Shown piece after piece: positions 1,898-63,461 of a stretch of DNA of 64,000 bases. The DNA comes from Lepraria neglecta (lineage: Eukaryota; Ascomycota; Lecanoromycetes; Lecanorales; Stereocaulaceae), in assembly GCA_033220425.1 (NCBI GenBank), contig CM065648.1:1550001-1614000 (forward strand), in the 5' to 3' direction. How positions within the stretch are numbered: position 1 is the stretch's first letter; each line of letters begins with the position of its first letter. The notes below the pieces were generated by a model that saw only the letters and a list, made by a program, of their open reading frames with translations, was not told where the DNA came from and did not search any database. The translations under genes and the position numbers were made by a program.

Positions 1898-2696
1898 CTT
1901 TAAGTACCCTTAAGGATAATACTATACTAAGAGACTCTAGGGTACCTACCTAAGCTCCTTAGGAGGAGGAAGCGGATAGAGACACCCTACTATTAACGAA
2001 GGACTTAGTAGGTATATTAAGATAGCCTAGCCTAACTTATACTATAGAGAGAGGGACAAGCTCGAGGGATAGCTATCCTAGATATTATTATATCTAAAGT
2101 TCTAAAGGGACTTTATACCTATATAGAGATATCCTACCTTCGCTATTACTTACTTATATAGAAGAGTATAAAAGTAGGTTAATCTATTCCTAAAGAAGTA
2201 TATAGAAGATAATAACAAGGACGGTAAGATTAAGTAGTAGATAGAAAGTATAGCAATATTCAGGCTTGAAATCTGCCGTATATTTAGACTATCTAATAAA
2301 GTCAACGCAGTAATATAAACTATCTAGTACTTAACTTAGAAGAAGTCTGTATTAGAGTATTTAACTTAGTTTTAGTAGTATATAGTAAAGACTAACTAGG
2401 ATAATAATATATTAATAACTATATACTAAAGAGGTCTAAAGGATAACGTTAAGGATAAACTTATAAGGTTAGGGATTATTCTTAATACCCTTAATAAGCT
2501 AATCGAAGAAGTAATTAAAATTAATAATAAGTTATTTGAAAGGACTATAGAAAAAAGGTACGACGGAGGAGTTAGCGGGATAGGATACTTAAGCTTTTTT
2601 ACTAAATCGAAGAGCTACCGCCTAGGTTATAAAGAATATAACCCTTACGGACTAGCGCTAATAGAACTGGATTTTACGGAGAAAAAAGGTAACTAG
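1898..2696 (+). pseudogene. C gag, first part (fossil)
   Basis: Sequence following the C 5' LTR matches the E gag at 39620-40420 almost base for base and the reverse complement of the gag ends of B and D. It is capsid/nucleocapsid coding sequence of a chromovirus. B inserted at 2696/2697; the remainder resumes at 16319, where the knuckle region lies. Broken, consistent with RIP. Confidence 0.85.
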
Positions 2697-3114
2697 TGTT
2701 ACGAACCGTATTGCGTATCAACGGTCGTAGTATAGATTGATTCTTACTAGGATGGATGTGCAATAGAGCAAGAGTATAAAGCAGGCTTCAAGTGATACTA
2801 AGCGGGTCTGGTATATAATTAGATGATATATGTTCAGTGCCTAGCCTAAGAGATCTATCGTATATAGTAGGTACTAGATGAAAATAGAAGTTGAGCACGA
2901 TACTCCAAGTGGTGAGTAAGTACTCGTATATATAGCAATAGGAAATCCCGCCAAGCATCCTTTAATAGCTTTGCTCGCACTGTAATCATTACGATTATTA
3001 TTCTTGATAGTATTACTCGTACTACGATCATTACGATTATCGCTTAACTTGCCTATCCTATCCGAAGTCTTATGTCCTTCGCGATAGTCCTATCAGAACC
3101 CTCTAGTTCTAATA
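2697..3114 (-). repeat. 3' LTR of B
   Basis: On the plus strand it reads TGTTACGAACC...TCTAATA, pairing with 15891-16318 and closely resembling the D LTRs. The internal side begins CTAGCTCCCCCTCC, which is the purine-rich priming tract on the minus strand and fixes this as the 3' end. Confidence 0.92.
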
Positions 3115-3116
3115 CT

Positions 3117-3128
3117 AGCTCCCCCTCC
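3117..3128 (-). other. Polypurine tract of B
   Basis: The minus strand reads GGAGGGGGAGC directly before the 3' LTR, the plus-strand primer position for reverse transcription. The same tract is present in A (6341-6352), C (21206-21217), D (22999-23010) and G (51079-51090). Confidence 0.8.
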
Positions 3129-3129
3129 A

Positions 3130-3700
3130 GATTTCTCGTCCCGAGAAACTATCTATCCTTCATGCCACCCGTTCGTACTAAACGATTATCTAACCTAACT
3201 ATCCGTTCAAAGGAGTTGGCCAGTAAGCTTTCCGACTTTGTTATACGACTATATTCCCGATGCGTTGCCAGTAGTAAGTAGTACCTTATAGGTGCCGATT
3301 TAGATAGGTATTCGAGTTATATTACTAGTAGTAGGAAGTGCGACCTTGTAGTGTCGCCCTTTGAAATACGTTGTGTTAAAAAGCGGCGCAACGAGCTACG
3401 AGAAGAAGTAACCGATACGCTCGTAAAACTAGTGCGTCTTCAGGTATAACTAAACTCTATTAAGAGCGAGAAGAAAAGAATAGTAGACCGAGAGTTATAG
3501 AATATTAGGAAGTTAGAGGAGGATTAACGTATCGCTCCTAGTTCCTCTAATGATTTAATATTTAATATCTCGTCTAAATAGTTCGATCTCCCTAGCGGGA
3601 TAGAAGTCCCCGAGAGCTTCGACTGGTCTTCTCTTATCTCTAATAGAACTCTTAGAGATATTCCCTACAGTTCCCCGTAAGGGTCCTAAAAGGTTCCTAG
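3130..3700 (+). pseudogene. Antisense frame beside the 3' LTR of B (fossil)
   Basis: On the strand opposite to gag-pol, a reading frame runs from the PPT toward the chromodomain end. It includes RFLVPRN near the start, a basic stretch KKRRNELREEV, a Lys/Glu-rich coiled-coil-like part, and a C-terminal block DLIFNIS followed by a Phe/Asp/Pro segment and NRTLRDIPYSSP. The same order occurs in A, C, D and G. The gag-pol frame approaches it from the other side, so the two are convergent. Function unknown. Broken by several changes consistent with RIP. Confidence 0.7.
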
Positions 3701-5927
3701 GTATTTTCCGTCTCGTTATACCCTTTCTACTTAACTAGATAGAACTAATTTCTTCTATCTAGGATCCTCTTGACCTTATACTCTATTTCTTCCTTAATAT
3801 TATAATAAAACGTTTCTTAGAGAGGTATACTAGAGTCTACTAGCTCTAGGAGTAAGATATAGAATACCGGATATACCTTTGCGTTAGGTAGAAGTTAGAG
3901 TTTATAGTTAACTAGTCCTTTTAACCGTTTAATTAAAAATAGTCCGATCTTAATATAATCTAGTTTCTTACTTAGTCTTATTATCCTTATATTTTTTATT
4001 AGGAGATATACTTTATCCCCCTCTTTTAGCTAAGGAATATTCTTTCTTTTCTTATTAACTTATTCCTTTAACTTTCTATTAGAGCTTTTAATTAACCTTT
4101 ATATATCCTTATATAAATTCTTTAGCTCTTCTACCTTAACTAAGGCCCTTTCTATATTAGGTCCTTCCCTAGGTTATAGAAATATATTTATATTCTTTCT
4201 ATAGTTAGTAAAGAATAGGGTCAGGCCTATTATATCTAACCTCTTATTATTATATACTAGTTATACTATTAGAAGTAGTAAAACCTAGTTATCTTATTTC
4301 TAGTTTATATAATACCTTAAGTATACTTCTATTATTTAATTGGCACGTTCTATTTATCTATTAGTCTATAGATAATATACTATTAATATCCGAAGTTTAG
4401 TTCTAATTACTACTATTAGCGTTTTCTAGTAGTTAGAAGTAAATAGCTTATCTCTATCGGATATTATCGACTTCGGTATACCGTAGTCCCTTATTAGCTT
4501 ATCGAGTAGTATAAAAGCTAATTAATCTACCTTATAGGTTTCCTTGAAGGGTACTATAATCGTATACTTTATAAGTTTATCTATAATAACTATAATTGAG
4601 TTAAAGGTATCCTATATAGCTAGGTCCTTCGATAGTAGTAACTTAACTATAAAATCTATTATAATATTATTCTATAGTAACTCTAGTATAGAAGTAAACT
4701 ATATTTATCCGTACTTAGCGTATCGTATCGCTTTATTCTACTAGTACTTGATATATTCTTTAATATATTATTTAACGCGCGCTCGAAGCTTTAGCGCTGC
4801 GTATCCTCGTCCTAGGAGTTCTATTATTTTAGATACTCTAGGGTAACCTTATAAAGGGTCGTTATAGTAATCTCTAATTACTTCTTTAACGTATATATTA
4901 GGTAAGTAGGTCTTATCCTAGTATTTGAGTAATACTAAATCCTATTGATCCTTTCGTAGGTTTATTATAAATATATCGTCGTTATAGGCCTTTATAATCC
5001 TATTAGTCGTATTAGATCCTAATATACGAAGGGTCGCTACTAATACCTAGTATAGTACTAGCGATCCGTCCGCTTCTTTCTTTAGGATTAGTCGTTCTAT
5101 AATATTCTTTTTTTCTATATAGTCTAATCGCCTACTAAGGGTATCTACTCGACTATTATCTTTCCCTAGGGTATAGGTTATCTTGAATTTATATTAACCT
5201 AATAGTTCTAACTATCGAACCTATCTTCTATTTAACTCTTTCGTTATTATAAAGTTAAGAAGATTCTTATAATCTATAAAGATAGTTAAGTCTAAGTAGC
5301 TCTCTACGTATACTCGCTAGTTCTATAATATATATACTATAGTAAGTAGCTCCTTATCGTATATATTATAGTTTTATTCTACTACTAATATCTTCCTTAA
5401 ATAGTAGGTAACTAGATACTACTTCTAGTCTTTCATTTAATATAGGTATACTCCGATTACAAGATCCGATATATCTATTTCGATATAAGCTAGCTCGTTT
5501 ATCTTAAAGGTATAGAGTACTAGTAAATCTATATATACTTTCTTTAATATATCGAATGATTCCTATTAGTTTTTTCCCTATATAAATCTAATATCTTTCT
5601 TCGTAATATCTATTAAAGGTAGTACTTTCTTAGAGTAGCCCTTAATAAACTTCCTATTAAAGTTAGCAAAACCTAAAAAGCTTTATACTACTTTAACGTC
5701 CTATAGTATAGGCTATTTAGTAATAGCTTTAATCTTTTCTAGGCTTATACTAATACCTTTCGTACTAACTATAAATCCTAGAAATTCTACCGCTTATTAA
5801 TAAAATTCGCACTTTTCTAGTTTAAGGAGAAGTCTCGCTTATAATAGGTATTCGATAACGTCCTATATATACCTAATATATTCCTTATTCTCAGAATAAA
5901 TTAGTATATTATCGAGGTACGCTATCG
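3660..5927 (-). pseudogene. B pol, 3' part: chromodomain, integrase, RNase H, RT end (fossil)
   Basis: The minus-strand reading matches A (6900-9160) and D (23540-25810) along its length. It contains the chromodomain (VERI-LD...WKGY-type core) near 3660-3800, the integrase core, the RNase H region and the last part of RT. It stops at 5927, where A is inserted; the RT continues at 12431. Many breaks. Confidence 0.87.
5923..5927. repeat. Target-site duplication of A (TATCG), left copy
   Basis: TATCG at 5923-5927 recurs at 12426-12430. Removing A and one copy restores the sequence found uninterrupted at the same point in A itself (about 9148-9175) and in D. Confidence 0.93.
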
Positions 5928-6338
5928 TGTTACGACCCCCGTCTAATCGTTAACCTAACGGTGCGATAATCAGGTATAGGTATATATAGTCTTATACTTC
6001 TATAGGAGAGGAGTCACTCAGGTAGAATAGCAGTCTTCTTAGTATTGGTAGTTAATACGTTCTATATTAATAACTAGTAAAGTATAGTGCAAGGAGTACC
6101 AGGAAGATTAACCAAGTTGAACACGCTGTTCCAAATAGTAGGCAAAGCCCCGTATATATAGATATACGAAATCCTGCCAAGCACCTTGATAGCTTTGCTC
6201 GCACTACGATCATTGTAATTATTATTCCTAATAGTATTACTCGTACTGCGATCATTGCGATTATCGCTTTACCTGCCTGTCCTACCCGAAGTCATTCGTC
6301 CTTCACGACAGTCCTATCAGAACCCTCTAGTTCTAATA
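5928..6338 (-). repeat. 3' LTR of A
   Basis: It begins TGTTACGACCCCCG and ends TCTAATA on the plus strand; it pairs with 12057-12425. It is 42 bp longer than its partner because it keeps an extra copy of the CTCGTACTGCGATCATT-type internal repeat. The end next to the internal region differs from the B/D family, so A is a separate subfamily. Confidence 0.93.
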
Positions 6339-6340
6339 CT

Positions 6341-6930
6341 AGCCCCCCTCTCTAGATTTCTCGTCCCGAGAAACCATCCGTCCTTCATGCCACCCATCCG
6401 TACCAAAAGATTATCTAACCTAGCCATCCGTTCGAAGGAGCTGGCCAGTGAACTTTCCGACTTCGTTATACAACCCTATTCCTAATACGTTGCCAGTGGC
6501 AAATAGTGCCTTATAGGTACTAATTCCGATAGATGTTCGAGCTGTGTTTCCGGTAGTCGGAATTGCGACCTTATAGTGTCGCCCCTTGAAATGCGTCGTA
6601 TTAAAAAACGGCGCAACGAGTTACGCGAGGAAGTTACTGATGCGCTTATAAAATTGGTACGCCTTTAGGCGTAGCTGAATTCCGTTGAAAAAGAGAAGAA
6701 GAATATAGTAGACCGAGAGTTACAGAATATAAGGGAATTGGAGGAGGATCAACGTGCTATCTCTAAACCTTCCGACGATTTAATATTCAATATCTCGTTC
6801 GAGTAGTTCGCTCTCCCTGACGGGATGGAAGTCCCTGAGAGCTTCGACTAGTCTTCTCTTGTCCCTAATAGAACTCTTAGAGATATTCCCTATAGTTCCC
6901 CGCAAGGTTCCTAAGAGGTTCCTAGATACT
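6341..6930 (+). pseudogene. Antisense frame beside the 3' LTR of A (fossil)
   Basis: This is the best preserved copy of the antisense frame. It shows RFLVPRN near its start, several Cys residues in C-x2-C-like spacing at about 6510-6570 (SDRCSSC, then NCD), a basic KKRRNELREEV block, a charged helix-forming segment (DRELQNIRELEEDQ), and the end block DLIFNIS...PDGMEVPESFD...NRTLRDIPYSSP. A Cys cluster followed by a coiled coil suggests a small nucleic-acid or protein binding factor, but that is inference. It is broken by a few changes. Confidence 0.75.
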
Positions 6931-9900
6931 TTCCGTTTCGTTATACCCTTTCTATTTAACTAGGTAGAACTAATTTCTCCTATCTAGGATCCTCTCGACC
7001 TTATACTCTATTTCTTCCTTAACGTTATAATGAAATATTTCTTAGAGTAGAGTATTAGAGTCCGCTAGCTCTAGAAGTAAGATATAGAATACCGGATATA
7101 CTTTGGCGTCAGGCGGAAGCTTGAGTTTATAGTTAACGGCTCCTTTTACCTTCTTAATTAAGAATAGTCCGATCTTGATATAATCTAGTTTCTTACTTAG
7201 TCTCGTTATCTTCATGTTTTTTATTAGGAGGTAGACTTTATCCCCCTCTTTAAGCTGAGGAATATTCTTTCTTTTACTATTAACGTATTCCTTTAACTTA
7301 TTATTTAAGCTTTTAATTATTTTTTATATATCCTTATATAATTCCTTTAGCTCTTCTACCTTAACTAAGGCTTTTTCTATATTAGGTCCTTCCCTAGGTT
7401 ATAGAAATATATTTATATTCTTTCCGTAGTTGGTAAAGAATAGTATTAGACCTATCGTGTCTGACCTCTTGTCGTTATACGCTAGTTATGCTATTAGAAG
7501 TAGTGAAACCTAGTTATCTTGTTTTTGGTTTATATAATATCTTAGGTATACTTCTATTATCTGGTTTGCACGCTCCGTTTATCTATTAGTCTATAGATAG
7601 TACGCGGTTGATATCCGAAGTTTAGTTCTAATCGCTGCGGTCAGCGTTCTCTAGTAATTAGAAGTAAATAACTTATCTCTATTAGATATTATCGATTTAG
7701 GTATACTATAATCTCTTATTAGCTTGTCGAGTAGTATAAAGGCTAACTAATCCGCTTTGTATATCTCCTTGAATGGTATTATAATTATATACTTCGTGAG
7801 TTTATCTATAATAACTATAATTGAATTAAAGATATCCTACGTAGCTAGATCCTTCGAAGGTAGTAGTTTGACTATAAAGTCCATTGTGACATCGTCCTAT
7901 AGTGATTCCGGTATAGGCGCAAACTAAATTTGCCTGTACTTGGCGTGTCGTGCCGCCTTATTCTATTGGCACTAAATATATTCCTTAATATACTATTTAA
8001 CGCGTATCCGAAGTTTCGGCGCTACGTATCCTCGTCCTAGGAGTTCTATAGTTTTAGACACTCTAGGGTAACCTTGTAATAGGTCATCGTGGTAATCCCT
8101 AACTACTTCTTTAACGTATATATCAGGCAAGTAAGTTTTGTCCTAATATTTAAGTAATACTAAATCTTGTTAATCCTATCTTAGCTTTGTTACAAATGTA
8201 TCGTTATTATAGGCCTTTACGATCTTATCTATTATATTAGGTCCCGATATACGAAGGGTCATTGCTAATACCTGGTGTGGCACCGATAATCTATCGGCTT
8301 GTTATTTTAGGATTAGTCGTTCCGTAACGATCTTTTCTTCTATATAGTCTAATCGCCTGCTAAGCGTATCTGCTCGACTATTATCTTTTCCTAGGGTATA
8401 GGTTATTTTGAACTTATATTGTCTAAGTAGTTCTAACTATCTAACTTATCTTCTATTTAACTCTTTCGTCGTTATAAAATTAAGAAGATTCTTATAATCC
8501 GTAAAGATAGTTAAGTCCGAGTAGCTTTCTGCGTATACTCTCCAATTTTGAAGTATATATACTATAGCAAGTAGTTCTTTGTCGTGAATATTATAGTTCT
8601 ATTCTACTACTAACATTTTTTATAAGAAGTAGGTAACTAGATACTACTTCTAGTCCTTTATTTAATAAAGGTATACTTCTATTACGAGATCCGAGGTATC
8701 TATTTCGATATAAGCCGGTTCGTTAGCTTAAAAGGTATAGAGTACTAGTAGATCTATATATGCTTTTTTCAATATATTAAACGACCTTTATTATTCTTGT
8801 CCCTATATAAATCCGATATCTTTCTTAGTAATATCTATAAGTGGAAGTACTTTCTTTAAGTAGCCCTTAATAAACTTCCTATTGAAGTTGGCAAATCCTA
8901 AGAAACTTTGTACTGCTTTGACGTCCTATAGTATAGGCTATTCCGCTATAGCTTTAATCTTTTCTAGGCTTATACTAATACCTTTTATACTAACTATAAA
9001 TCCTAGAAACTTAATAGAGTCCCTATAAAATTCGCACTTTTCTAGTTTAAGGAGTAGTCCCGCTTATAATAGGTATTCGATAACGTCCTATATATACTTG
9101 ATATATTCTTCCTTATTCTTAGAGTAAATCAAGATATCGTCGAGGTACGCTATCGTTATTCGATCTAAGTATACTTGTATAATATTATTAATAAGTACTT
9201 AGCAGGTTACTAGTGCGTTGGTGAGTCTAAACGGTATTACTAGATACTTATAGTAGCTATATCTAGTCCGGAAGGCAGTTTTCCACTCTTCGCCTTCTTT
9301 TATCCAGATTAGATTATATACGCCTCTAAGATCTAGTTTCGTAAATATCTTTACCTTACTAAGCCGATCCTATAGCTCGCTGATATTTGGTAAAGGATAT
9401 CTATTCTTGATAGTAATATCGTTCAACTTTCGATAGTCGATATATAGCCTTAAGCTTCCGTCCTTCTTCAGCGCGAAGAGGATTGGATAACCTGCTAGTA
9501 ATTTGGATTCCCGAATAAATCCCTTCTTAAGGTTCTTATCGATATACCCGCGAAGTATAGTAAGTTCCTTTTCCGATAGTATATAGATAGGTCTAAATAT
9601 TAGCGCCTTACTAGGTTCGAGTTCGATCTTATAATCCTATAGTTAGTACTTAGGCAATACTTTTGCGCTCGTCTCTTCCTTGAATAGGTATACCTACTAT
9701 TTATATTCCTGAGGGATCGTAGAAGGTTCGTCTTTTCCTTTAATAGCTCTCTCTTTAGTATCCCGCTAACCTCTACTAGTAACTAAGGAGTTAAGCCTTC
9801 TCTCTTAGAAGTTACTCTTATCATTTAAGAATAAAGTAATATATACTTTGACCGGTCTTCGGTTCTTTCCCTTATCTATTATCGTCTACTATTAACTAAT

Positions 9901-13529: not shown

Positions 13530-15890
13530 TTCCTCCCTTAACTCTCACTTCTTTATCCTACTAACCTTTACTAGTAACTATAGAGTCGGACTACCGTTTG
13601 GTACCGTCCTTATGCGAAGCTAAGGTAATATATACCTCGACCGGTCTTTAGTTCGACTTCTTATCTATTATCGTACGCTATCGATATATAGGTTCGATTT
13701 TAGTAATATAGCCAAATCGTCTAATCTCGAGTACTCCTCTTATCTAATCGATTATTAGATTATACTTCTTTAACCAAGGTATTCCTAAAATTATATAATA
13801 AGTAGCTATCCCAATAATATTAAAGGTAATCTCCTTATAGTAGCGCTGAATTGTAATAGGTAACGAAAGTATCTCTTCGTCTACCTTTCCTATTGATAGT
13901 ATTAACCCGTTAGCCATCTGAAGATCGTACTAATATAGCTTCTTTCGGGTTAGTAATTTAGTTAACTATACCAAGTCTCGCGAAATGAAGTTTCTAGTAG
14001 CTCCAGAATCTATTATCGCAACGGTCCGCTATCCGTTAACGATTATCGGTATTTTCATATATATATCGTATTGCGCGGAACATAGATGTTATTTAGGGGT
14101 TAATATATTGATCTCCTTATGGCTACCCCTACTATAAGGGATTACTCTTTTCCCTATAGAAATCCTAATATAGATTCTATCTACTTATATATTGGGAGTA
14201 GGAATCCTACTTCGGATTTCTCTTTCTTATATTCCGTGTAGTTATTATATAAATAGGTATACTATTCTTTTAGATAGTATTTCTCTATATACGGATAGTA
14301 TATTATCTCTTTCTTGACGTGTTCTAACCAATCTATATCGTTTCCTAGGAAGAACTAGTAAAGTCTCTTTATTGCCAAATACTATAGGTATTCGTTCTTT
14401 CTATAGTTATAGTAGAAGTCTTATCTATAGTAAGCCTTCTTTACTAGCCCCTTTCTATAACTTCTTAGCGTACTATACTATACGTAATAAAGCGTAGTAT
14501 ATTCTTCCTATAGTAACTCTCTATATCTTCGATAATTCCGGTCTTATCGGTAATCTAGTTTCTTATCATCCTATTGTGATTCCTTAGAGCTTTCTTCTTT
14601 TTCCTTAGACGTAGTAGATCCAGGTATTAATTTCCTTAGTGGTCGTATATCTTCCTACTTAGCTTCTAACGTGCTGAGGGCTTCTTCCTACTCTAGGTCT
14701 ATCCCTTCGCTTTCCTAATCCTACTCCGATTCTTTATAAGTACTACTACCGTCTCTAATATCTAAATCTTCTTTGGTTTATAAGGTAACGTCCTCTATAA
14801 GTTCGTCCTCGCCCTCGGATTTATAGTTATACTATTCTTACGTTATCCTATTATACTAGAAGTCGACGTCTTCTTTACCTTTATCCTATATTAGTAGGTC
14901 TTCCTTAGGTATATTATCTATATCGTCCTAGGTACGTACTTTCTCTAGTACATTTAGCTACGGTCGATATACTATGTTTTTCGACTTGTAGTCTCTAGTA
15001 AAGTAGCCCGATTTGCTATAGCTATAATACGTAAGTATTTTCTTTCTACCCCCTTACTGCTTCTTATCCCTAGCTAGCCCTCTAAAGGCCTATTTGCCTT
15101 TTTTCTCCGTGAAGTCTAATTCTATTAGTATATATCCGTAAGGGTCGCGTTCCTTATATCCTAGGTAGTAGCTCTTCGATTTAGTAAAAAAGCTTGAGCG
15201 TCCTATTCTATCGACTCCTCTATTATATCTTTTCTCTATAGTTCTTTCGAATAGCTTATCGTTAATTTCGATTACTTCCTTAATTAATTTGTTAAGGGTA
15301 TTAATAATAATCCCTAATCTTATAAGTTTATCTTTAATATTATCCTTAAGGCCTCTTTAGTATATAGTTATTAATATATTATCGTCCTAGTTAGTCTTCG
15401 CTATATATTACTAAAATTAAGTTAAGTATTCTAATATAGATTTCTTCTAGGTTATATACTAGATAGTTTGTATCGCTATATTGACTTCGTTTAACGGACC
15501 GAATATATAACGGATTTCGAGTCTAAATATAGTTATACTCTCTATCTATTATCTAATTTCGCTATCCTCGTCGTTATCTTCTATATATTTCTTTAGGAAT
15601 AGATTAACCTACTTTTAGGCTCTTCTACGTAAGTAAGTAATAGCGAAGGTAGGATATCTCTATATAGGTATAAGGTCCCCTTAGAACTTTAGATATAATA
15701 ATACCTAGGATAGCTATCCCTCGAGCTTATCTCTTTCTCTATAGTATAAGTCGGGCTAGGCTATCTTAATATGCCTGCTAAGTCCTTCGTTAATAGTTAG
15801 GCGTCGTTATCCGCTTCCTCCTCCTAAGGAGCTTAGGGTAGATACCCTAGGGTCTCTTAGTAGAGTACTTATCCTCGAGGGTACTCAAAG
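13530..15890 (-). pseudogene. B protease, knuckle and gag (fossil)
   Basis: Continues B on the minus strand: protease region near 14000, a zinc knuckle near 14950-15060 (cognate of the A knuckle at 11160), then gag to the primer site just inside 15891. It matches D 26400-28812 throughout. Broken by many changes. Confidence 0.86.
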
Positions 15891-16318
15891 TGTTACAAAC
15901 CGTATTACGTATTAACGGTCGTAGTATAGATTGATTCTTACTAGGATAGATATATAATAGAGTAAGAGTATAAAGTAGGCTTCAAGTAATACTAAGCGGG
16001 TCTAGTATATAATTAGATAATATATATTTAGTACCTAGCCTAAGAGATCTATCGTATATAGTAGGTACTAGATGAAAATAGAAGTTGAGCACGATACTCC
16101 AAGTAGTAAGTAAGTACTCGTATATATAGTAATAGGAAATCCCGCCAAGTATCCTTTAATAGCTTTGCTCGCACTACGATTATTGCGATCATTATTCTTG
16201 ATAGTATTGCTCGTACTACGATTATTACGATTATCGCTTAACTTATCTATTCTATCCGAAGTCTTATATCCTTCGCGATAGTCCTATTAGAACCCTCTAG
16301 TTCTAATAAATAGACCTT
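15891..16318 (-). repeat. 5' LTR of B
   Basis: Starts TGTTACAAACCG and ends TCTAATA, pairing with 2697-3114. After 16318 the C gag resumes with AATAGACC, matching the uninterrupted E sequence at about 40418. Confidence 0.92.
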
Positions 16319-19300: not shown

Positions 19301-20690
19301 TAACTAATAGGATCGTAAAGGCCTATAAAGATAATACATTCGTAATAATCCTAAGAAAGGATTAGCCGGATACGGTATTACTTAAATACCGGGAGAAGAC
19401 TTATCTACCTGAGTAATATATAGAAGAAGTAGTTAGGGATTACTACGACGATCTATTACAAGGTTATCCGGGAGTTACTAAAACAATAGAGCTCCTAGAA
19501 AGGGGATACGCGGCGCCAAAGCTTCGAGCGCGCGTTAAATAATATATCAAAGAATATATTCAATACCAGTAGAATAAGTCTATATAATATACCAAATATG
19601 GATAAATATAATTTATACTAGTTCTAGAATTACTATAGGATGATATTATAATAGACTTTATAGTTAAGTTACTACTATCTAAGGATCTAGCTACTTAGGA
19701 TACCTTTGATTCAATTATAGTTATTATAGATAAACTAACGAAGTATACTATTATAGTACCTTTTAAGGAGACCTATAAAGTAGATTAGCTAGTATTTATA
19801 TTATTGGACAGGCTAATAAGGGACTATAGTATACTAAAGTTAATTATATTAGATAGAGATAAGCTCTTTATATCTAATTACTAGAAGATACCTATTATAG
19901 TAATTAGAACGAAACTAAGAATATCGATAGTATACTATCCGTAGATAGATAGATAAATAGAATATGCAAATCAGATAATAGAAGCGTACCTTAAGTACTA
20001 CGTCAACTAGAAATAGGATAACTAGGTATTACTACTTCTAATAGTATAACTAGTATATAATAATAAGATATTAGATATAATAAAGCTAATACTATTCTTT
20101 ACTAATTATAGAAAGAATATAAATACTTTTCTATAACCTAGAGAGGGATCTAATATAGAAAAAGCCTTAGTAAAGACGGACGAGCTAAAGAATTTATATA
20201 AGGATATATAAAGATCTATTAAAAGCTTAAATTCTAAACTAAAGGATCGAATTAATAAGAAAAGAAAGAATATTCCTTAGCTAAAGAAGGGGGATAAAGT
20301 ATACCTCCTAATAAAAAATATAAGAACGACGAGACTAAGTAAGAAACTAGATTATATTAAGGTTAGACTATTCTTAATTAAATAGGTAAAAGGACCTATT
20401 AACTATAAACTCGAGCTTCTACCTAATACCAAGGTATATCCGGTATTCTATATCTTACTCTTAGAGCTAGTAGACTCTAATATACCCTTATAGGAAATAT
20501 TTTATTATAATATTAAAGAAGAAACGGAGTTCGAGGTTAAGAGGATTCTAAATTAGGTTAATTAGAAATATCTAGTTAAATAGAAAGGGTATAACGATAC
20601 CGAAAATACCTATAAACTACTTAAGAACCTTACGAACTACTAGGGACTTCTATAAGAGTTCCGGGAGCGTTATAGAAGGAGGACTAATTA
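16319..20690 (+). pseudogene. C gag end and pol (fossil)
   Basis: On the plus strand: knuckle region at 16360-16430, an acidic linker, protease near 17300-17350, RT ([10 protein letters not shown] near 18184, later the YFNN/YLDD position near 18390), RNase H about 18800-19180, integrase about 19450-20100, and a chromodomain near 20500-20680. The order and spacing equal A and D. Broken by many tens of changes, consistent with strong RIP. Confidence 0.88.
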
Positions 20691-21205
20691 GTTCTATCTA
20701 GGAAGCCAAATTGTTCGGACGAGACGTTGAATATCTAGCTATCAGGAACGCTTAGGATAGACCGCTAGTCTTCTTCCAACTCCTTAATATTCTATATCTC
20801 TCGGTCTATAATCTTCCGCTTTTTATTTTCAAGTTGTTTATACTACGTCTAAAGGCGTATTAGTATAGCCTAAAGACGTATAGACTCTTTCGTATTACGG
20901 GCTAACTCTTCGCGCGTAGTTTTTAACTATAACTACGCTTCCTTTCGTTCTATCTTAATACAATATATCTTAAGGGGTAATACCACAAGGTTACATTTTC
21001 TACCGCTATCTATATAGTTAGAATACCTATCGGATCCTATACCTATTAAGTACTATTTGCCGCTGGCAATATATCGGGAATACAGCCGTATCACGACTTC
21101 GGTTAGCTTACTGGCCAGCACCGTTCGGCGGACGGTCGGTTTATCTAAACGCTTTATATATCGGGGTAGTATAAAGGATAGATGGTTTCTCGGGACGAGA
21201 AATCT
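20690..21205 (-). pseudogene. Antisense frame beside the 3' LTR of C (fossil)
   Basis: Read on the minus strand, this is the C counterpart of the antisense frame in A and B. It contains the FLVPRN-like start region near 21190, a Lys/Arg-rich middle, an IRELE-like segment near 20790-20810 and an IFNVSSEQF-like block near 20715-20740. It is more diverged at DNA level than A versus B but keeps the order of motifs. Confidence 0.65.
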
Positions 21206-21220: not shown

Positions 21221-21733
21221 TATTACAATTAGGAAACATAATCAGGGATACGCTCAAGGAGCGTAGCGCCCGTTATGGTTCGAGTCGACGAATTAGTATC
21301 CGACTCGGATAGACCCTGAAGGCTTGGTATGTTAAGCGATGAGCGCAGTGGTTGTAATAAGCGCAGGTACGATCAGTACGATTAGTACGATCAGGGATAC
21401 TTGGCATATTAAGCGATAAGCGCAGTGGTCGCAATAAGCGCAGGTGCGATTAGTACGATCAGTGCGATCAAGAATACTTAGTATGGATTTCGTATATCTA
21501 TATATACGAAGCACTATTTACTACTTAGAGTATCGTGCTCAACTTACTTCCTATTTATAGTTTACTATATATAATAGATCTCTTAGGCTAGGTACTAAAT
21601 ATATATTATCTAATTATATACTAGACCCGCTTAGTATTACTTAAAGCCTACTTTATACTCTTATTAGATTATACCTCTATCCCTATTAAGAATTAATCTA
21701 TATACGATACTAGCACGCAACGTATTCGTAATA
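21221..21733 (+). repeat. 3' LTR of C with an internal tandem duplication
   Basis: It matches 1462-1897 but is 77 bp longer because the block TTGGCATATTAAGCGATAAG... with its GCGCAGGTGCGATTAGT units is present twice (about 21320-21480). A purine tract (21206-21217) precedes it and TAGAG follows it. Confidence 0.92.
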
Positions 21734-22577: not shown

Positions 22578-22995
22578 TATTACGAACCGTATTGCGTACT
22601 AACGGTCGTATATAGATTGATTCTCACTAGGACGGAGATATAATAGAGTAAGAGTATAAAGCAGGCTTTACGTGGTACTAAGCGGGTCTAGTATATAATT
22701 AGATAATATATATATTCAGTGCCTAGCCTAAGAGATCTATTGTATATAGTAAATACTAGATGAAAATAGAAGTTAAGCACGATACTCCAAGTGGTAAGCA
22801 AGTACTCCTATATATAGTAATAGGAAATCCTACTAAGCCTTTTATAATCGCTATGAGCGCACGACGCTTATTGCGCTTATCATTCTTGAGCGCCATGAGC
22901 GTACTACGCTCGTTGTACTTATCGCTTTAGCTGCTAGTCCTATCTATAGTATCGTGTCCTATAGGATAGTCCTGTTAGAACCGCTAGTTCTAATA
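22578..22995 (-). repeat. 3' LTR of D
   Basis: Begins TATTACGAACCG (TG end mutated to TA) and ends TTCTAATA. It is followed by the purine tract complement CTAGCTCCCTCC. It pairs with 28813-29230. Confidence 0.92.
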
Positions 22996-23029: not shown

Positions 23030-23600
23030 ACTATCCATCCTCTATACTACCCCGTCGTACTAGATAATCAAATAAATAAGCCGTCCGCAGAACGGAACTG
23101 GCTAGTAAATTATCCGAAATAGTTATGTGTCTCTACTCCCGATATACCGCTGCTAGAAAGTAGTGCCTAGTAGGTACTAGTTCTAACTAATATTCGAACT
23201 GCGTTGATAACGATAGGAAATACAATCTTATAGTGTCGGTCCTTGAAATATATTATATTGAAAAACGTCGCAACGAAATATAGTAAGAGCTATCTAATAC
23301 TCTAGCCAAAGCGAGCCGCTTATAAAAATAATTCGAGTCGATTAAAAAGGAGAAGAAGAAGATAATAGACCGAGAATTATAAAACATTAGGGAGTTAGAG
23401 GAGGACTAACGTGTCGCTCCTAGGTCCTCTAGTAACTTGATATTTAATATCTCGTCTAAGCAGTTCGATTTCCCTGACGGGCTAGAAGCCCCCGAGAGTT
23501 TTAACTAGTCTTGTCTTATCTCTAGTAGAACTCTTAGAGATATTCCCTATAGTTCCCCGTAAGGTTCCTAAGAGGTTCCTAGGTACTCTCCGTCTTATTA
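23030..23600 (+). pseudogene. Antisense frame beside the 3' LTR of D (fossil)
   Basis: Same position and orientation as in A and B. It shows the FLVPRN-like start near 23020-23040, KRRNE in the middle, KKIIDREL and IRELEED, then DLIFNIS, a PDGLEAPESF-like stretch and RTLRDIPYSSP near 23530-23565. The middle differs from A and B more than the end block does. Broken. Confidence 0.68.
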
Positions 23601-26600
23601 TATCCTTTCTATTTAACTAGATAGAACTAATTCCTTCTATCTAGGATCCTCTCGACCTCGTACTCTATTTCTTCCTTAACGTTATAGTAGAATATTTCTT
23701 AGAGAGGTATACTAGAGTCTACTAGCCCCAGGAGTAAGATATAGAATATCGGATATATCTTTGTATCAGGTAGAAGTTAGAGTTCGTAGTTAACTAGTCC
23801 TTTTATTCGTTTAATCAAGAATAGTCTAACCTTAATATAATCTAGTTTCTTACTTAGTCTCGTTATCCTTATATTTTTTATTAGGAGGTATACTTTATCC
23901 CCCTCTTTTAGCTAAGGAATATTCTTTCTTTTCTTATTAATCTATTCCTTTAATTTACTATTCGAGTTCTTAATAGACTTTTATATATCTTTATATAAAC
24001 TCTTAAGTTCTTTTACCTTAACTAAGGCCTTTTCTATATTTAGTCCTTCCTTTACTTATAGAAATATATTTATATTCTTTCCGTAGTTAGTAAAGAATAG
24101 TATTAGGCCTATTATATCTAACCTCTTGTCGTTATACGCTAGTTATACTATTAGAAGTAGTAAAACCTAGTTATCTTATTTCTAGTTTATATAATATCTT
24201 AAATATACTTCTATCGTCTAATTAGCACGTTCTATCTATCTATTAGTCTATAGGTAATATACTATTAATATCCGAAGTTTGGTTCTAATTACTACTATAA
24301 GCGTTCTCTAGTAGTTAGAAGTAAATAACTTATCTCTATCGGATATTATCGATTTCGATATACTATAATCTCTTATTAGCTTGTTAAGTAGTATAAAGGC
24401 TAACTAGTTCGCTTTATAGATTTCCTTAAATAGTATTATAATCGTATACTTCGTTAGTTTATCTATAATAACTATAATTAAGTCGAAGGTATCTTACGTA
24501 GCTAGATCCTTTAAAGGTAGTAGTTTAACTATAAAGTCTATTATAATATCATCCTATAGTAATTCTATTATAGGAGTAAATTATATTTATCCGTACTTAG
24601 CGTATTATACCGCTTTATTCTACTAGTACTAGATATATTCTTTAATATATTATTTAATACGTATCCGAAGTTTCGGCGCTACGTATCCTCGCTATAGGAG
24701 TTCTACTACTTTAGATACTCCTAGGTAATCTTATAAGGGGTTATCGTAGTAATTTCTAATTACTTCTTTAACGTATATATTAGGTAAGTAGGTCTTATCC
24801 TAGTATTTAAGTAATACTAAACCCTACTAATCTTTTCGTAGATTTGTTACGAATATATTATTATTATAGGCCTTTATAATCCTATTAGTTATATTAGGTC
24901 CTAATATATAAAGGGTCGCTACTAATACCTAGTATAGTACTAGCGATCCGTCTACTTCTTTCTTTAGGATTAGTTACTCTATAATATTCTTTTCTTCTAT
25001 ATAGTCTAATTACCTACTAAGTATATCTACTCGACTATTATCTTTCCCTAGAGTATAGGTTATCTTGAACTTATATTAACCTAATAGCTCTAACTATCGA
25101 ACTTGTCTTCTATTTAACTCTTTAGTTATTATAAAGTTAAGAAGATTCTTATAATCTATAAAGATAGTTAGATCCGAGCAGCTTTCTATATATACCCGCT
25201 AGTTCTATAATATATATACTACGGTAAGTAACTCCTTATTGTGTATATTATAGTTTTATTCTACTACTAATATCTTCCTTAAATAGTAGGTAACTAGATA
25301 CTACTTTTAGTCTTTTATTTGATATAGGTATACTCTAATTACAAGATCCGAGGTCTCTATTTCGATACGGGCCGGTTCGTTGGCCTAGAAGGTATAGAGT
25401 ACTAGTAGATCTATATATACTTTCTTTAATATATCGAATAACTTCTATTAGTCTTTTCCCTATATAAACCTAATATCCTTCTTCGTAATATCTATTAGAG
25501 GTAGTACTTTCTTTAAGTAGCCCTTAATAAACTTCCTATTAAAGTTAGTAAATCCTAAGAAGCTTTATACTACTTTAACGTCCTATAGTATAGACTATTC
25601 CGCTATAGCCTTAATCTTCTCTAGGCTTATACTAATACCTTCTATACTAACTATAAACCCTAGGAACTCTACTAACTATTAATAAATTCGCACTTTTCTA
25701 GTTTAAGAAGAAGTTTCGCTTGTAATAGGTATCTAAGGATATCCTATATATACTTAATATATTCTTTCTTATTCTTAGAATAAATTAGTATATTATTAAG
25801 GTACGCTATCGCTGTTTAATCTAAGTATACTCGTATAATATTATTAATAAGTACTTAGCAGGTTACTGGTACGTTGATAAGTCTAAACGATATTACTAGA
25901 TACTCGTAGTAGCTATATCTTGTTTAGAAGGTAGTTTTCTATTCCTCGCCTTCCTTTATCTAAATTAGATTATATATACCTCTAAGATCTAGTTTAGTAA
26001 ATATCTTTGCTTTGCCGAGCCGATCCTATAGCTCTCCTATATTTAGTAATAGATATCTATTCTTGATTATAATATCGTTTAACTTTTAATAGTTGATATA
26101 TAGTCTTAAGCTTCTATTCTTCTTTAGTATAAAGAGGATTAGATAATCTACTAGTAATTTAGATTCTTGAATAAATCCCTTTTTAAGGTTCTTATTAATA
26201 TATCTATAAAGTACTTTAAGTTCCTTTTCTAATAATATATAAATAGGTCTAAATATCGGCTATTTACTAGGTTCGAGTTTAATCTCGTAATCCTATAGCT
26301 AGTATCTAGATAATACTTCTATATTTGTCTCTTCCTCGAATAAGTATATCTACTTACTATATTCCTAAGGGATAGAGGGTATATTAGTTCCTCTCTTTCC
26401 TTTTACTATATTATTCTACTAACCTTTACTAGTAACTATAGAGTTAGACTACCTTTTAGTATTGTCCTTGTATAAAGCTAAGGTAATATATACCTCGACT
26501 AGTCTTCGGTTTAACTTCTTATCTACTATTAAACGCTGCTGATATATAGGTATAATCCTAGTAATATTACCGGATTAATCTATCTTAAGTACTCCTCGAG

Positions 26601-37480: not shown

Positions 37481-37779
37481 ACGTTTCTTCCTTCCCTAAT
37501 TAGTTATCCCTTAGTTAATTATATTCTCTATAACATCTATAAGGGCCGTAGACGAATTCTAACGCTTTAGACGCGAGGTAGGGGCAGGAGCGCTATTATT
37601 AATATATACCGTAAAAGTAGGCGTCTAACGCCGCTAACGGGTAATAGTACGCTAATTATAAATACTATCATGAAGACTAAAGATACCTTACGTCTCTAGA
37701 GCTATTAAATTGGGATAAGAGGTAATAGCGCCGAATAGATATAAGTTACCTAGTTTATTTAAATAAGAAGGCAAATACT

Positions 37780-38116
37780 AAGCTTAATACTTGGTATTTA
37801 CTACTAAGCTTACGCTGCCCGTAAAACATAGCGAAAATACTTCTTTTACTTATAACTTTTGTGTAAATAGGGCAATTCTAAAAATTCTTGATACGCAAGC
37901 AAGCTAATAATTGACTCTAAAACTTATGAAATTATCTCGATATTATATAATATATATAGCGCGGGGAAGTACTGCGAAGAAGTGCGTAGCGTATTTAACT
38001 TTTAGTAGTTAAAGGCACTAGCCGAGAGAGGAAATACAGCTCTAAAGGGATATTCTAATTAGCTACAAGTACGGAATTGCTCCGAATATCGCGATAATCT
38101 ATTATTAGAAGAAAGA
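37780..38116 (-). other. Helitron 5' terminal region (shared repeat)
   Basis: Sequence from about GCCCGTAAAACATAGCG to the TC end is shared with 49430-49621 and, in several tandem copies, with 62490-63461. It includes the conserved ATATAGCGCGGGGAAGT block. It is probably the 5' end and promoter region of the element. Confidence 0.75.
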
Positions 38117-39187: not shown

Positions 39188-39619
39188 TGTTACGATTAGG
39201 AAATATAATTAGAGATACGCTCTAGGAGCGTAGCGCCTATTATAGTTCGAGTTAACGAATTAGTATCCGACTCGAATAGACCCTAAAGGCTTAGTATACT
39301 AAGTAATAAGTATAGTAAGCGCAATAAGCGCAGTGCGATTAGTACGATTAGTGCGATCAAGAATACTTGGCGTAGATTTCGTATATCTATATATACGGAG
39401 TACTACTTACTACTTAGAGCGCCGTACTTAACTTTCTATTTAATTATTTACTATATATAATAGATCTCTTAGGCTAGATACTAAATATATATTATCTAAT
39501 TATATACTAGACCCGCTTAGTATTACTTAAAGCCTACTTTATACTCTTATTAGATTATATCTCTATCTCTATTAAGAATCAATCTATAATATAAATACCG
39601 GAATATACGGTTTATAATA
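39188..39619 (+). repeat. 5' LTR of E
   Basis: Begins TGTTACGATTAGG, ends TTTATAATA, and matches 1462-1897 closely. It is followed by CTTTAAGTACCC as in C. Confidence 0.92.
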
Positions 39620-50633: not shown

Positions 50634-51075
50634 TACGTTGCGTACTATATCGTATAGGGATTGATTCTCAATAGGAATAGAGGTATAGATATACAAGAGG
50701 TAAAGTAGGCTTCGAGTGATGCTAAGCGGGTCTAGTATATAATTAGATAATATATATTTAGTATCTAGCCTAAGAGATCTATTATATATAGTAGATACTA
50801 GATATAAATAGAAAGTTAAGCACGATACTCTAAGTAGTAAATAGTACTCTATATATATAGCAATAGAAAATCCATGCCAAGCATTTTATTTATACGAGTC
50901 GAATATTAATTCGTCTAAACTATATCTAAGTCGAACGAGTCGAATATCGATTTGTCTAAACTATATCTAAGTCGAACGAGTCGAATATCGATCCATCTGA
51001 ACTAGACCCTACCAAGCCTATACTAGTTTATACGCCCCTGATACGTTCTTATTAGTATATTCTTAGCTCTTAATA
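50634..51075 (-). repeat. 3' LTR of G, with internal 41-bp tandem repeat
   Basis: Begins TGTTACGAACTACG and ends CTTAATA. At 50895-51005 a 41-bp unit (CGAGTCGAATATYRATTYGT...) occurs two and a half times, an addition not seen in the A, B or D LTRs. Confidence 0.88.
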
Positions 51076-51109
51076 TTAGCTCCCCTCTCTAGAATTCTCG
51101 TCCTGAGGA

Positions 51110-51690
51110 TAACCTACTATCCTCTATATCTCGCCCAAAACTAGATACCCTCTCTAAATCGTTAGTTAGAAGATAGCGCATTCTTATCAGCTCGAGTACC
51201 GCAGTCGTCGTTATATAAAAGTACTAGTACTATATTCGCTATAAGAAGGAGTGCCGTATCAGGGCTGAGTCGGAATCTTGTATAGAGTATATATCGTCTA
51301 GACTATCTTATAAGCTCGCCTTCTCTAAGGCCAAGCTCCGTCGTATATAAAAGAAACGCCGTAAAAAGATAGTTATACTACGCCAAGTGCTTTATAAGTA
51401 AAATAAGCTCGCTACTTATACTATAAAGCTAAACTATAAAGTAGAAAAACTTGAAGAGGAGGAGGATATATTAGTATATTATAAGCTTTAGAATATTAAG
51501 GAGATAGAGTATAATAAGGCTACCCTATCGCTTAACCCTAACAATCTAATATTTAATATATCGTCCGAGCGTTTCGATCTACCCGGCGGTTTAGATACCC
51601 CTAAAGGGTTTAATTAGTTATCCTTTATCTCTAATAGAACTCTTATAGATATTCCCTATAGTTCCCCGCAAGGTTCCTAAGAGGTTTCTA
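51110..51690 (+). pseudogene. Antisense frame beside the 3' LTR of G (fossil)
   Basis: The most diverged copy. The beginning and middle share little DNA identity with A or B, yet the reading keeps a basic KKRRKKIVILRQVL stretch, a Glu-rich EKLEEEEDI segment, and the end block NNLIFNISSERFDLPGG...TPKGFN...NRTLIDIPYSSP near 51540-51680. Conservation of the protein end block across subfamilies points to past selection on this strand. Broken by a few changes. Confidence 0.65.
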
Positions 51691-52911
51691 GGTATTTTCC
51701 GTTTTATTATAACCTTTCTATTTAACTAGATAGAACTAATTCCTCCTATCTAGAATCCTCTTAACCTCGTACTATATTTCTTCCTTAATATTATAATAAA
51801 ATATTTCCTAAAGAGGTATATTAGAGTCCGCTAGCTCTAGGAGTAAGATATAGAATATCGAATATACTTTAGTATTAGGTAGAAGTTAGAGTTTATAGTT
51901 AACTAGTCCCTTTACCCGTTTAATTAAGAATAGTCTAACCTTAATATAATCTAGTTTCTTACTTAGTCTTATTATCCTTATATTTTTTATTAGGAGGTAT
52001 ACTTTATCCCTCTCTTTTAGCTAAGGAATATTCTTTCTTTTCTTATTAACCTATTCCTTTAACTTAGTATTAGAGCTTTTAATAGACTTTTATATATCCT
52101 TATATAAATTCTTTAGCTCTTCTACTTTAACTAAAGCTTTTTCTATACTAGGTCCTTCTCTAGATTATAGAAAGGTATTTATATTCTTTCTATAGTTAGT
52201 AAAGAATAGTATTAGGCCTATTATATCTAACTTATTATTATTATACGCTAGTTATACTATTAGAAATAGTAAGACCTAGTTATCCTATTTCTAGTTTATA
52301 TAGTACCTTAAATATACTTCTATTATTTAATTTATATATTCTATCTATCTATTAGTTTATAGATAATATACTATTAATATCCAAAGCTTAGTTCTAATTA
52401 CTACTATAAGTATTTTCTAGTAGTTAGAAGTAAATAACTTATCTCTATTAGATATTATTAACTTCGGTATACTATAATCCCTTATTAACTTATCTAGTAG
52501 TATAAATACTAATTAGTCTACCTTGTAGGTTTCCTTAAAGGGTATTATAATTATATACTTCGTAAGTTTATCTATAATGACTATAATTGAGTTAAAGGTA
52601 TCTTATATAGCTAGGTCCTTTAAAGGTAGTAACTTGACTATAAAGTCTATTATAATATTATCCTATAGTAACTCTAGTATAGTTATAAACTATATTTGTC
52701 TATATTTAGCGTATTATACTACTTTATTCTACTAGTACTAGATATATTCTTTAATATATTATTCGACGCGCGCTCGAAGTCTCGGCGCTGTATAACTTCG
52801 TCCTAGGAGCTCTATCGTCTTAGATACCCCTAGGTAACCTTATAAAGGGTTATCGTAGTAATCCCTAATTACTTCCTTAACGTATATATTAGGTAAGTAG
52901 GTCTTATCCTA

Positions 52912-62489: not shown

Positions 62490-63300
62490 ATAAGTTTTGC
62501 GTAAATAGACCGATTTTGAAAATTTCGACGGTATTGGAAAGCGTATGCTTGGTTCCAAAACTGATAAGATTATCTCGATATCATATGACATATGTGGCGC
62601 GGGGCATTACTGCGAAGAAGTTGCGGTGCGTATTCAACTTTTGATGTTCCAGGGTCCGGAGGCGCCAAGCTCAATGCTTGGCATTTACTACTGAGCTCGC
62701 ACTGCCTGTAAAACATAGTGAAAACGCTTCTTTTGCTCATAACTATTGCGTAAGTAGACCGATTTTGAAAATTTTGACGGTATTGGAAAGCGTATACTTG
62801 GTTCCAAAACTTATGAAATCATCTCGATATTATATAATGTATATGGCGCGGGGAAGTCCTGCGAAGAAGTTACGGTACGCAAGTAAAACATAGCGAAAAT
62901 GCTTCTTTTGCTCATAACTATTGCGTAAATAGGCCGATTCTAAAAATTCTTGATACGCAAGCAAGCTAATGATTAACTCCAAAACTTATGAAATTATCTT
63001 GATATTATATAATATATATAGCGCGGGGAAGTAGTGCGAAGAAATTTTGACGGTGTTAGAAAGCGTATACTTGGTTCTAAAACTTATGAAATCATCTCGA
63101 TATTATATAATATATATAGCGCGGGGAAGTCCTGCGAAGAAGTTACGGTACGCAAGCAAAACATAGCGAAAACGCTTCTTTTACTCATAACTATTGCGTA
63201 AATAGGCCGATTCTAAAAATTCTTGATGCGTAAGCAAGCTAATGATTGACTCCAAAACTTATGAAATCATCTTGATATTATATAATGTATATAGCGCGGG
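62490..63300. repeat. Tandem copies of the Helitron 5' terminal module
   Basis: The module GCGTAARTAGRCCGATTYTR...GCGCGGGGAAGTCCTGCGAAG recurs from about 62500, 62752, 62923, 63050 and 63196, with lengths of 130-250 bases. The same module is present once in the 7-kb copy (37810-38000) and once in the 524-bp copy. Confidence 0.82.
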
Positions 63301-63461
63301 GAAATAGTGCGAAGAAGTTGCGGTGCGAATTCAAGTTTTGGTAGTTGAAGGCGCTAGGCCGAAAAGCGTACTATCAGGGGGGAGAAGTATAGGGCCGATC
63401 TTATTGGCTATAAGTGCGGAATACCCTCCGAAAGTCGCGATAATCTATTATTATAAGAAGA

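Follow-up and report, generated by a model that had tools for sequence, protein, structure and literature searches.

An antisense gene between pol and the 3' LTR of gypsy retrotransposons in Lepraria neglecta, its six-cysteine protein and the half-site arrays of U3

The brtn antisense gene of Boty-like elements is said to have been reported by Zhao et al. (2011, Virology 417:248), and part of the present findings may already be in print there. Also used for comparison were the VANDAL elements, which are DNA transposons, HBZ, which is a bZIP protein, and the Gal4-type Zn(II)2Cys6 factors, which have a characteristic cysteine spacing, basic residues between cysteines 2 and 3 of the cluster, a following coiled-coil-like helix and inverted half-sites.

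For antisense genes located between pol and the 3' LTR, the role is called unknown in the available portions of PMC7264820 and of the 2025 Retand paper PMC11963269. In fungi, brtn is described as the antisense gene of the Boty-like elements of Botrytis cinerea (excerpts of PMC8365987, PMC7264820 and PMC4227169), whose gag-pol has a chromodomain (PMC4227169, same excerpt); brtn is grouped with the antisense open reading frames (ORFs) between pol and the 3' LTR in the available part of PMC7264820, and an excerpt of PMC5987419 describes a Monilinia transcript with resemblance to Pol as well as to BRTN. For the plant Retand elements, the accessible text of PMC11963269 describes antisense ORFs (TRP28, PF04195) that are predicted to bind DNA and for which a regulatory role is proposed. 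The same text presents HBZ of HTLV-1 as a nuclear antisense product of a retroelement, and VANC binds motifs that often form tandem repeats in the non-coding DNA of its own VANDAL element (PMC5735166, in the part available).

Convergent antisense genes had been regarded in the initial annotation as no standard part of gypsy elements; this view was abandoned, because antisense genes at this position are already described (brtn of Boty, plant Retand). What is added here is the six-cysteine spacing of the protein and the arrays in U3. No zinc-cluster-like antisense gene or matching U3 array in fungal retrotransposons was recognised in the titles and abstract starts of the open-licence literature.

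Element layout in the window and in the genome

The window is the whole 64-kb stretch of DNA that was analysed (C3:1550001-1614000); the genome searched comprised 42.0 Mb in 11 contigs. Five pol ends were found in the window by tblastn with a 110-aa natural pol piece (a query that would miss other gypsy families), and the antisense frame adjoins all five, at each of the places (copies B, A, C, D and G) where it had initially been noticed. The exact ends agree in the five copies with a frame running from beside the polypurine tract (PPT) toward the chromodomain, and stops interrupt the ORF in all of them. On the plus strand of copy B, the order is 3' LTR, PPT, palindrome, ATG at 3162 and stop, followed by pol on the opposite strand. 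The features are as follows (window positions):

2695-3117, plus strand: 3' LTR of copy B, with its end at about 3117 (2695-3114 matches 15889-16308 at 92%)
2991-3039: three A-type half-sites in the 3' LTR of copy B
3119-3128, minus strand: PPT of copy B, read from the sequence, between the 3' LTR and the ATG
3132-3148: 17-bp palindrome TTTCTCG-TCC-CGAGAAA of copy B, between the PPT and the ATG
3162-3689, plus strand: antisense ORF of copy B, ATG at 3162, stop at 3687-3689, broken by stops
3730-4059, minus strand: end of pol of copy B, reaching to the chromodomain side; convergent with the antisense ORF
6206-6263: three U3 half-sites of copy A
6387-6914, plus strand: antisense ORF of copy A, ATG at 6387, stop at 6912-6914, broken by stops
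6477, 6486, 6507, 6534, 6543 and 6564, plus strand: starts of the six Cys/Tyr codons in the antisense ORF of copy A
6955-7284, minus strand: end of pol, copy A, convergent likewise
20251-20580, plus strand: end of pol, copy G, convergent likewise
20621-21172, minus strand: antisense ORF of copy G, ATA at the start site (21172), stop at 20621-20623, broken by stops
21340-21470: U3 half-site array of copy G, 10 A-type sites
22845-22902: U3 half-site array of copy C, arranged >> << >> with spacing 9/10/9/14/9
23044-23571, plus strand: antisense ORF of copy C, ATA at the start site, stop at 23569-23571, broken by stops
23612-23941, minus strand: end of pol, copy C, convergent likewise
50894-50984: U3 array of copy D, three D-type half-sites with a 41-bp period
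51126-51680, plus strand: antisense ORF of copy D, ATA at the putative start site, stop at 51678-51680, broken by stops; Cys/coil part divergent, C-tail similar
51721-52050, minus strand: end of pol, copy D, convergent likewise

The 12-base core of the palindrome was also found at 6359, 21189 and 23016, and with one change at 51096; the arms are perfect in 62 of the 74 A-type copies described below. The palindrome may have been spared by RIP because it contains no CpA, and it may represent an operator or form a hairpin ahead of the PPT. Other LTR stretches of the same element family lie at 1464-1648 and 39190-39374 (half-sites at 1581-1634 and 39316-39359), and no antisense ORF adjoins them by the pol-piece tblastn of the window. 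Separately, positions 62769-63314 consist of two 273-base units in tandem (95% alike), with a third copy (66%) at 37707-37979.

Relatives of the antisense frame occupy at least 150 genome places: a 53-aa piece of copy A matched at all 150 scored places (E <= 1.6e-7; 352 candidates), and 14 of 17 scored places were matched by a 40-aa piece taken from copy D, the divergent one. For the alignments, 100 loci were sampled and reduced by their 150-base core to 88 distinct copies (74 A-type, 14 D-type), which are part of the at least 150 places. LTR counts were made on 73 A-type copies, one being dropped by the length filter. The pol side could be aligned beside the antisense frame in 74/74 A-type copies and therefore no copy freed from its element was seen among these 74. 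Relatives in viral and prokaryote contigs were searched with one scan each and one peptide pattern, and none was confirmed. In copy L012, the antisense frame continues in frame from an upstream open frame (L012:2517-3053, minus strand, 179 aa to the locus edge). This fused frame was considered as a host gene and rejected, Pfam giving no family at E <= 0.01.

Coding character and past selection of the antisense frame

Because RIP produces C-to-T and G-to-A changes, only transversions (purine-pyrimidine changes) were counted, by parsimony on a tree of the copies. Strong third-position bias was found on the antisense strand. For the 74 A-type copies, the steps at the three codon positions were 80/75/183 from the start codon to column 60 (p=1e-4), 103/60/176 to column 240 (p=1e-4) and 44/30/77 to column 330 (p=0.007). 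The 14 D-type copies, taken separately, gave 49/46/98 over columns -130 to 330 (p=1e-4). Codon-position bias was absent from the LTR control (159/187/166, p=0.58), and pol served as positive control in its own phase (bias at columns 700-1300 in 34 copies, p=0.0002); close to the antisense gene the pol bias was weak (p=0.08 at columns 408-690, p=0.07 at 408-700). The D-type pol stretch showed a weaker third-position excess (89/85/109, p=0.012), which is not interpretable because the reference copy is out of phase there.

In the last 78 columns (330-408), opposite the pol tail, the antisense frame had no codon-position bias (38/42/39, p=0.60). Conservation merely through the overlap with pol was ruled out by the bias for the columns outside this stretch. 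The end block DLIFNIS...NRTLRDIPYSSP had been put forward as conserved and as a sign of selection. It is indeed present in B and A and as variants in C and D; lying opposite the pol tail and lacking codon-position bias, it is no evidence for selection. Of all parts, the conserved end can least be attributed to the antisense strand, and the selection evidence is carried by the Cys and coil parts. Copy G had likewise been thought to keep the block despite its divergence: the DNA divergence stands, but the block is kept weakly (50% to B, against 84% in pol).

A degeneracy test was run because the wobble position is shared by one minus-strand frame, in which in-frame stops are slightly less frequent (2.59 per 100 codons, against 3.14 in the antisense frame). 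Third-position steps in the antisense frame averaged 3.33 at four-fold and 1.53 at two-fold codons (p=0.00045), and the other five frames gave p values of 0.50-0.99, leaving the antisense frame as the only positive one of six. A sense-strand (env-like) ORF at the shared wobble position was rejected on the same test (2.59 steps at four-fold, 2.57 at two-fold codons, p=0.50).

The start column reads ATG (32) or ATA (41) in 73 of 74 A-type copies, ATA being what RIP would make of ATG, and the stop column reads TAA (72) or TGA (1), again in 73 of 74. The length is 175 aa in 47 of the 63 A-type copies in which the frame is kept. The 74 aligned copies together have 404 in-frame stops; for 379 of them, a single RIP-type change separates the stop from a sense codon that another copy shows. 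The antisense stop lies at column 405, and a frequent stop of the pol frame lies at column 370, where 17 copies have CGA or CAA instead; if pol ends at column 370 or beyond, the two frames would overlap tail-to-tail by about 35 bases or more.

The antisense frame almost certainly is, or was, a protein-coding gene. Past selection at the protein level, proposed in the initial annotation, is upheld by the strong codon-position bias and by a degeneracy test that singles out this frame among six. Together, the transversion-only count and the comparison of four-fold with two-fold codons offer a way to recognise genes in heavily RIP-mutated repeats.

The six-cysteine protein and the U3 half-site arrays

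The antisense protein begins with a short basic start, followed by six cysteines, a basic segment, a long predicted coiled-coil-like helix and a C-terminal tail. The basic block KKRRNELREEV was found in B and A. The long helix, in line with the helical part proposed initially, is predicted by the AF2 model with pLDDT 92-95 over residues 71-90. The C-tail contains FDWSSL or FNWSSL in four natural pieces, and its charge varies in these, with 7 acidic and no basic residues in L061 and 5 of each in L042 as the extremes; by analogy, it might presumably be compared to an activation tail.

Tyrosine is the RIP product of TGY codons. The cysteines are spaced CX2CX6CX8CX2CX6C in the 74 A-type copies, and 440 of the 444 cells of these six columns hold Cys (228) or Tyr (212), the others being 1 Ser, 1 Ala and 2 gaps. 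All six cysteines are intact in six A-type copies, Cys or Tyr alone occupies the columns in 72/74, and transversions are few in them (p=0.0004). The C-x2-C cluster first noticed in copy A is thus part of a six-cysteine array, much of which reads as Tyr, as RIP would make it. By reading, the two halves of the array resemble each other. In the 14 D-type copies, Cys/Tyr columns recur at this spacing; the first two of their columns read almost only Tyr (12 Tyr and 2 Ser; 13 Tyr and 1 Lys), and for that reason we infer cysteine there. The D-type start codon column is Ile in 13/14, which makes the start a putative one. Identity to L063 is 28 and 31% for two D pieces.

The columns agree with C-x2-C-x6-C-x5-12-C-x2-C-x6-8-C, which we take to be the Zn(II)2Cys6 (PF00172) pattern, and we likewise take x2/x6/x8/x2/x6 to be the spacing of fungal Zn(II)2Cys6 clusters. 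The Pfam gathering cut-off of PF00172 (Zn_clus), 21, was narrowly missed: 6 of the 36 members scanned match, with 20.9 bits at best, and five of these six align to the second half of the profile. The scan listed 21 families for the 36 members, PF04195 and the bZIP family not among them, and unrelated families reached E 0.0025-0.007 in single members. A profile-profile comparison with the Zn_clus proteins of the genome (16 of its 68 matches were used) aligned only half of the cluster (E=0.011, probability 3.8%). Between Cys 2 and Cys 3, most A-type copies lack the canonical basic residues: among the six columns concerned (-18 to -3), a single one is K/R in most copies and another is R in 14/74. 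D-type pieces read RREKE/RRDKE between these cysteines. The AF2 model of the Cys part was of low confidence (pLDDT 46-54) and gave a single Foldseek match at E=9.9; solved structures searched by sequence gave at best E 0.59 and 0.21, both unrelated, and NCBIfam only weak unrelated matches.

Upstream of the antisense ATG, U3 contains the A-type half-site TGAKCGY (RIP-tolerant letters) in both directions. There are 331 such half-sites in the 73 A LTRs and 34 were expected from dinucleotide shuffles, a comparison that overstates the evidence because the motif was chosen by eye in seven copies, all of them among the 73 counted, and because the copies are related. At least two half-sites occur in 70/73 LTRs and none in 2/73; same-length controls held 33 in the ORF and 9 in pol. 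The preferred spacings are << 9 (58), >> 9 (41) and >< 10 (25), among 218 pairs. The D-type inverted half-site occurs 51 times in 14 D LTRs (0.6 expected), at least twice in 12/14 and not at all in 2/14. The cross-counts were 0 D-type motifs in the 73 A LTRs and 1 A-type motif in the 14 D LTRs. In A-type U3, TATA-like motifs are commonest at about 180-200 bases ahead of the slice end.

A strict pattern of four half-sites was found at 10 genome places (control 0). By coordinates, three of these (C2:62580, C2:111344 and C2:1023472) lie about 320 bases from antisense ORF matches. The other seven match LTR stretches of the same element family over about 390-445 bases, and the palindrome found before the ORF is absent from the 685 bases read; these places may be solo LTRs or 5' LTRs.

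Copy D is 85-90% identical to B, A and C in pol and 76-78% in the C-tail, against 30-33% in the U3 array and 38-46% in the Cys/coil part (raw identities); its outer LTR is 76-78% identical to B and C and 49% to A. By these comparisons, the array and the Cys/coil part have diverged together in D, and, as the two are neighbours, one recombination block may explain this. Copy G is 49-50% identical to B in the coil and C-tail and 84% in pol, and therefore divergence is not confined to one block. Copy A appears as a mosaic: its outer LTR (5927-6341, compared with 2695-3117) is 51% identical to B, its U3 array 83%, and the array, Cys and coil parts 79-83%, which suggests recombination inside LTRs.

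Candidate roles and comparison with known systems

The best explanation, to which we assign a probability of about 45%, is that the element encodes on its antisense strand a regulator that would bind the U3 arrays of its own LTRs and control LTR transcription. The antisense gene would most likely be transcribed out of the 3' LTR. Its six-cysteine protein would bind metal and form dimers, and the dimer would bind the inverted half-site arrays, so that sense and antisense transcription could be controlled from shared sites. Activation or protection from silencing is the more likely effect, because either would repay the element; by analogy with HBZ, repression is possible. A bolder form, held tentatively and with some doubt, makes the protein a Gal4-like sequence-specific regulator driven by the very arrays that it binds, a self-contained feedback circuit in which subfamilies exchange the DNA-binding part and the operator array together as insulating lock-and-key pairs. 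If an antisense-encoded regulator of this kind exists, elements control their own promoters and the subfamily-specific pairs are a source of new DNA-binding specificities. The antisense gene would thereby receive a concrete, testable role that joins a six-cysteine protein, a predicted helix and inverted-repeat arrays in the same element.

A basic, six-Cys protein with a predicted long helix could also be an accessory factor that binds nucleic acids during the replication cycle (an RNA chaperone, or a helper of nuclear entry or of integration), with the U3 arrays bound by a host transcription factor; repeats in U3 are, after all, common in LTRs. We consider this unlikely: the Zn2Cys6 spacing is typical of sequence-specific fungal DNA binders, and D differs from B, A and C in the array and the Cys/coil part together with pol at 85-90%, even if these parts adjoin. 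Roles like those of retroviral accessory proteins are suggested for plant antisense ORFs in the available part of PMC7264820.

Less probable again is a factor that, like VANC, binds the repeats of its own element and removes host silencing, and that is no classical activator. The subfamily-specific arrays described here fit such a factor, and VANC binds short motifs of its own transposon while related VANCs have changed targets (PMC5735166, available part); RIP, however, is a mutation process, and a DNA binder could not reverse it.

An active antisense RNA, with dsRNA or siRNA feeding back on gag-pol and the protein secondary, has a small chance of being correct: a role of this type is raised for plants in the accessible text of PMC7264820 and the convergent layout would yield complementary transcripts, but an RNA would need neither the selection on amino acids nor the Cys columns. 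That there is no gene, the frame being held open by the pol overlap or by RIP-driven composition, is almost certainly wrong: one other minus-strand frame does have slightly fewer stops and the last 78 columns are without bias, but transversions are not RIP products, the bias is found beyond the overlap, the degeneracy test singles out the antisense frame and contradicts this explanation, and start and stop are fixed.

The regulator favoured here can be set beside the known systems as follows. With Zn(II)2Cys6 factors (PF00172), it shares the Cys spacing, the coiled-coil-like helix after it and the inverted half-sites; it differs in that most A-type copies are without a basic recognition module in the Cys 2 to Cys 3 interval, in a score below the Pfam cut-off and in being encoded antisense in a retrotransposon. 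Like HBZ, it is the antisense product of a retroelement, and unlike HBZ it had no bZIP family among those listed by Pfam. Subfamily-specific arrays of short motifs in the element's own non-coding DNA are shared with VANC of VANDAL21, an Arabidopsis element for which binding is demonstrated (PMC5735166, available part), whereas binding here would follow from sequence features. Retand elements resemble the present ones in an antisense ORF between pol and the 3' LTR, a predicted DNA-binding product and tandem repeats within the element (PMC11963269, accessible text); their repeats lie in the internal region, those described here lie in U3, and the PF04195 match is absent here. For brtn, the available text of the literature on it mentions no U3 array. 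The likeness to brtn, drawn from descriptions, is that of a chromodomain LTR retrotransposon with an extra antisense gene between pol and the 3' LTR, and here too the gene lies antisense between pol and the 3' LTR and is kept across copies, in 5/5 of the window and 74/74 of the alignment.
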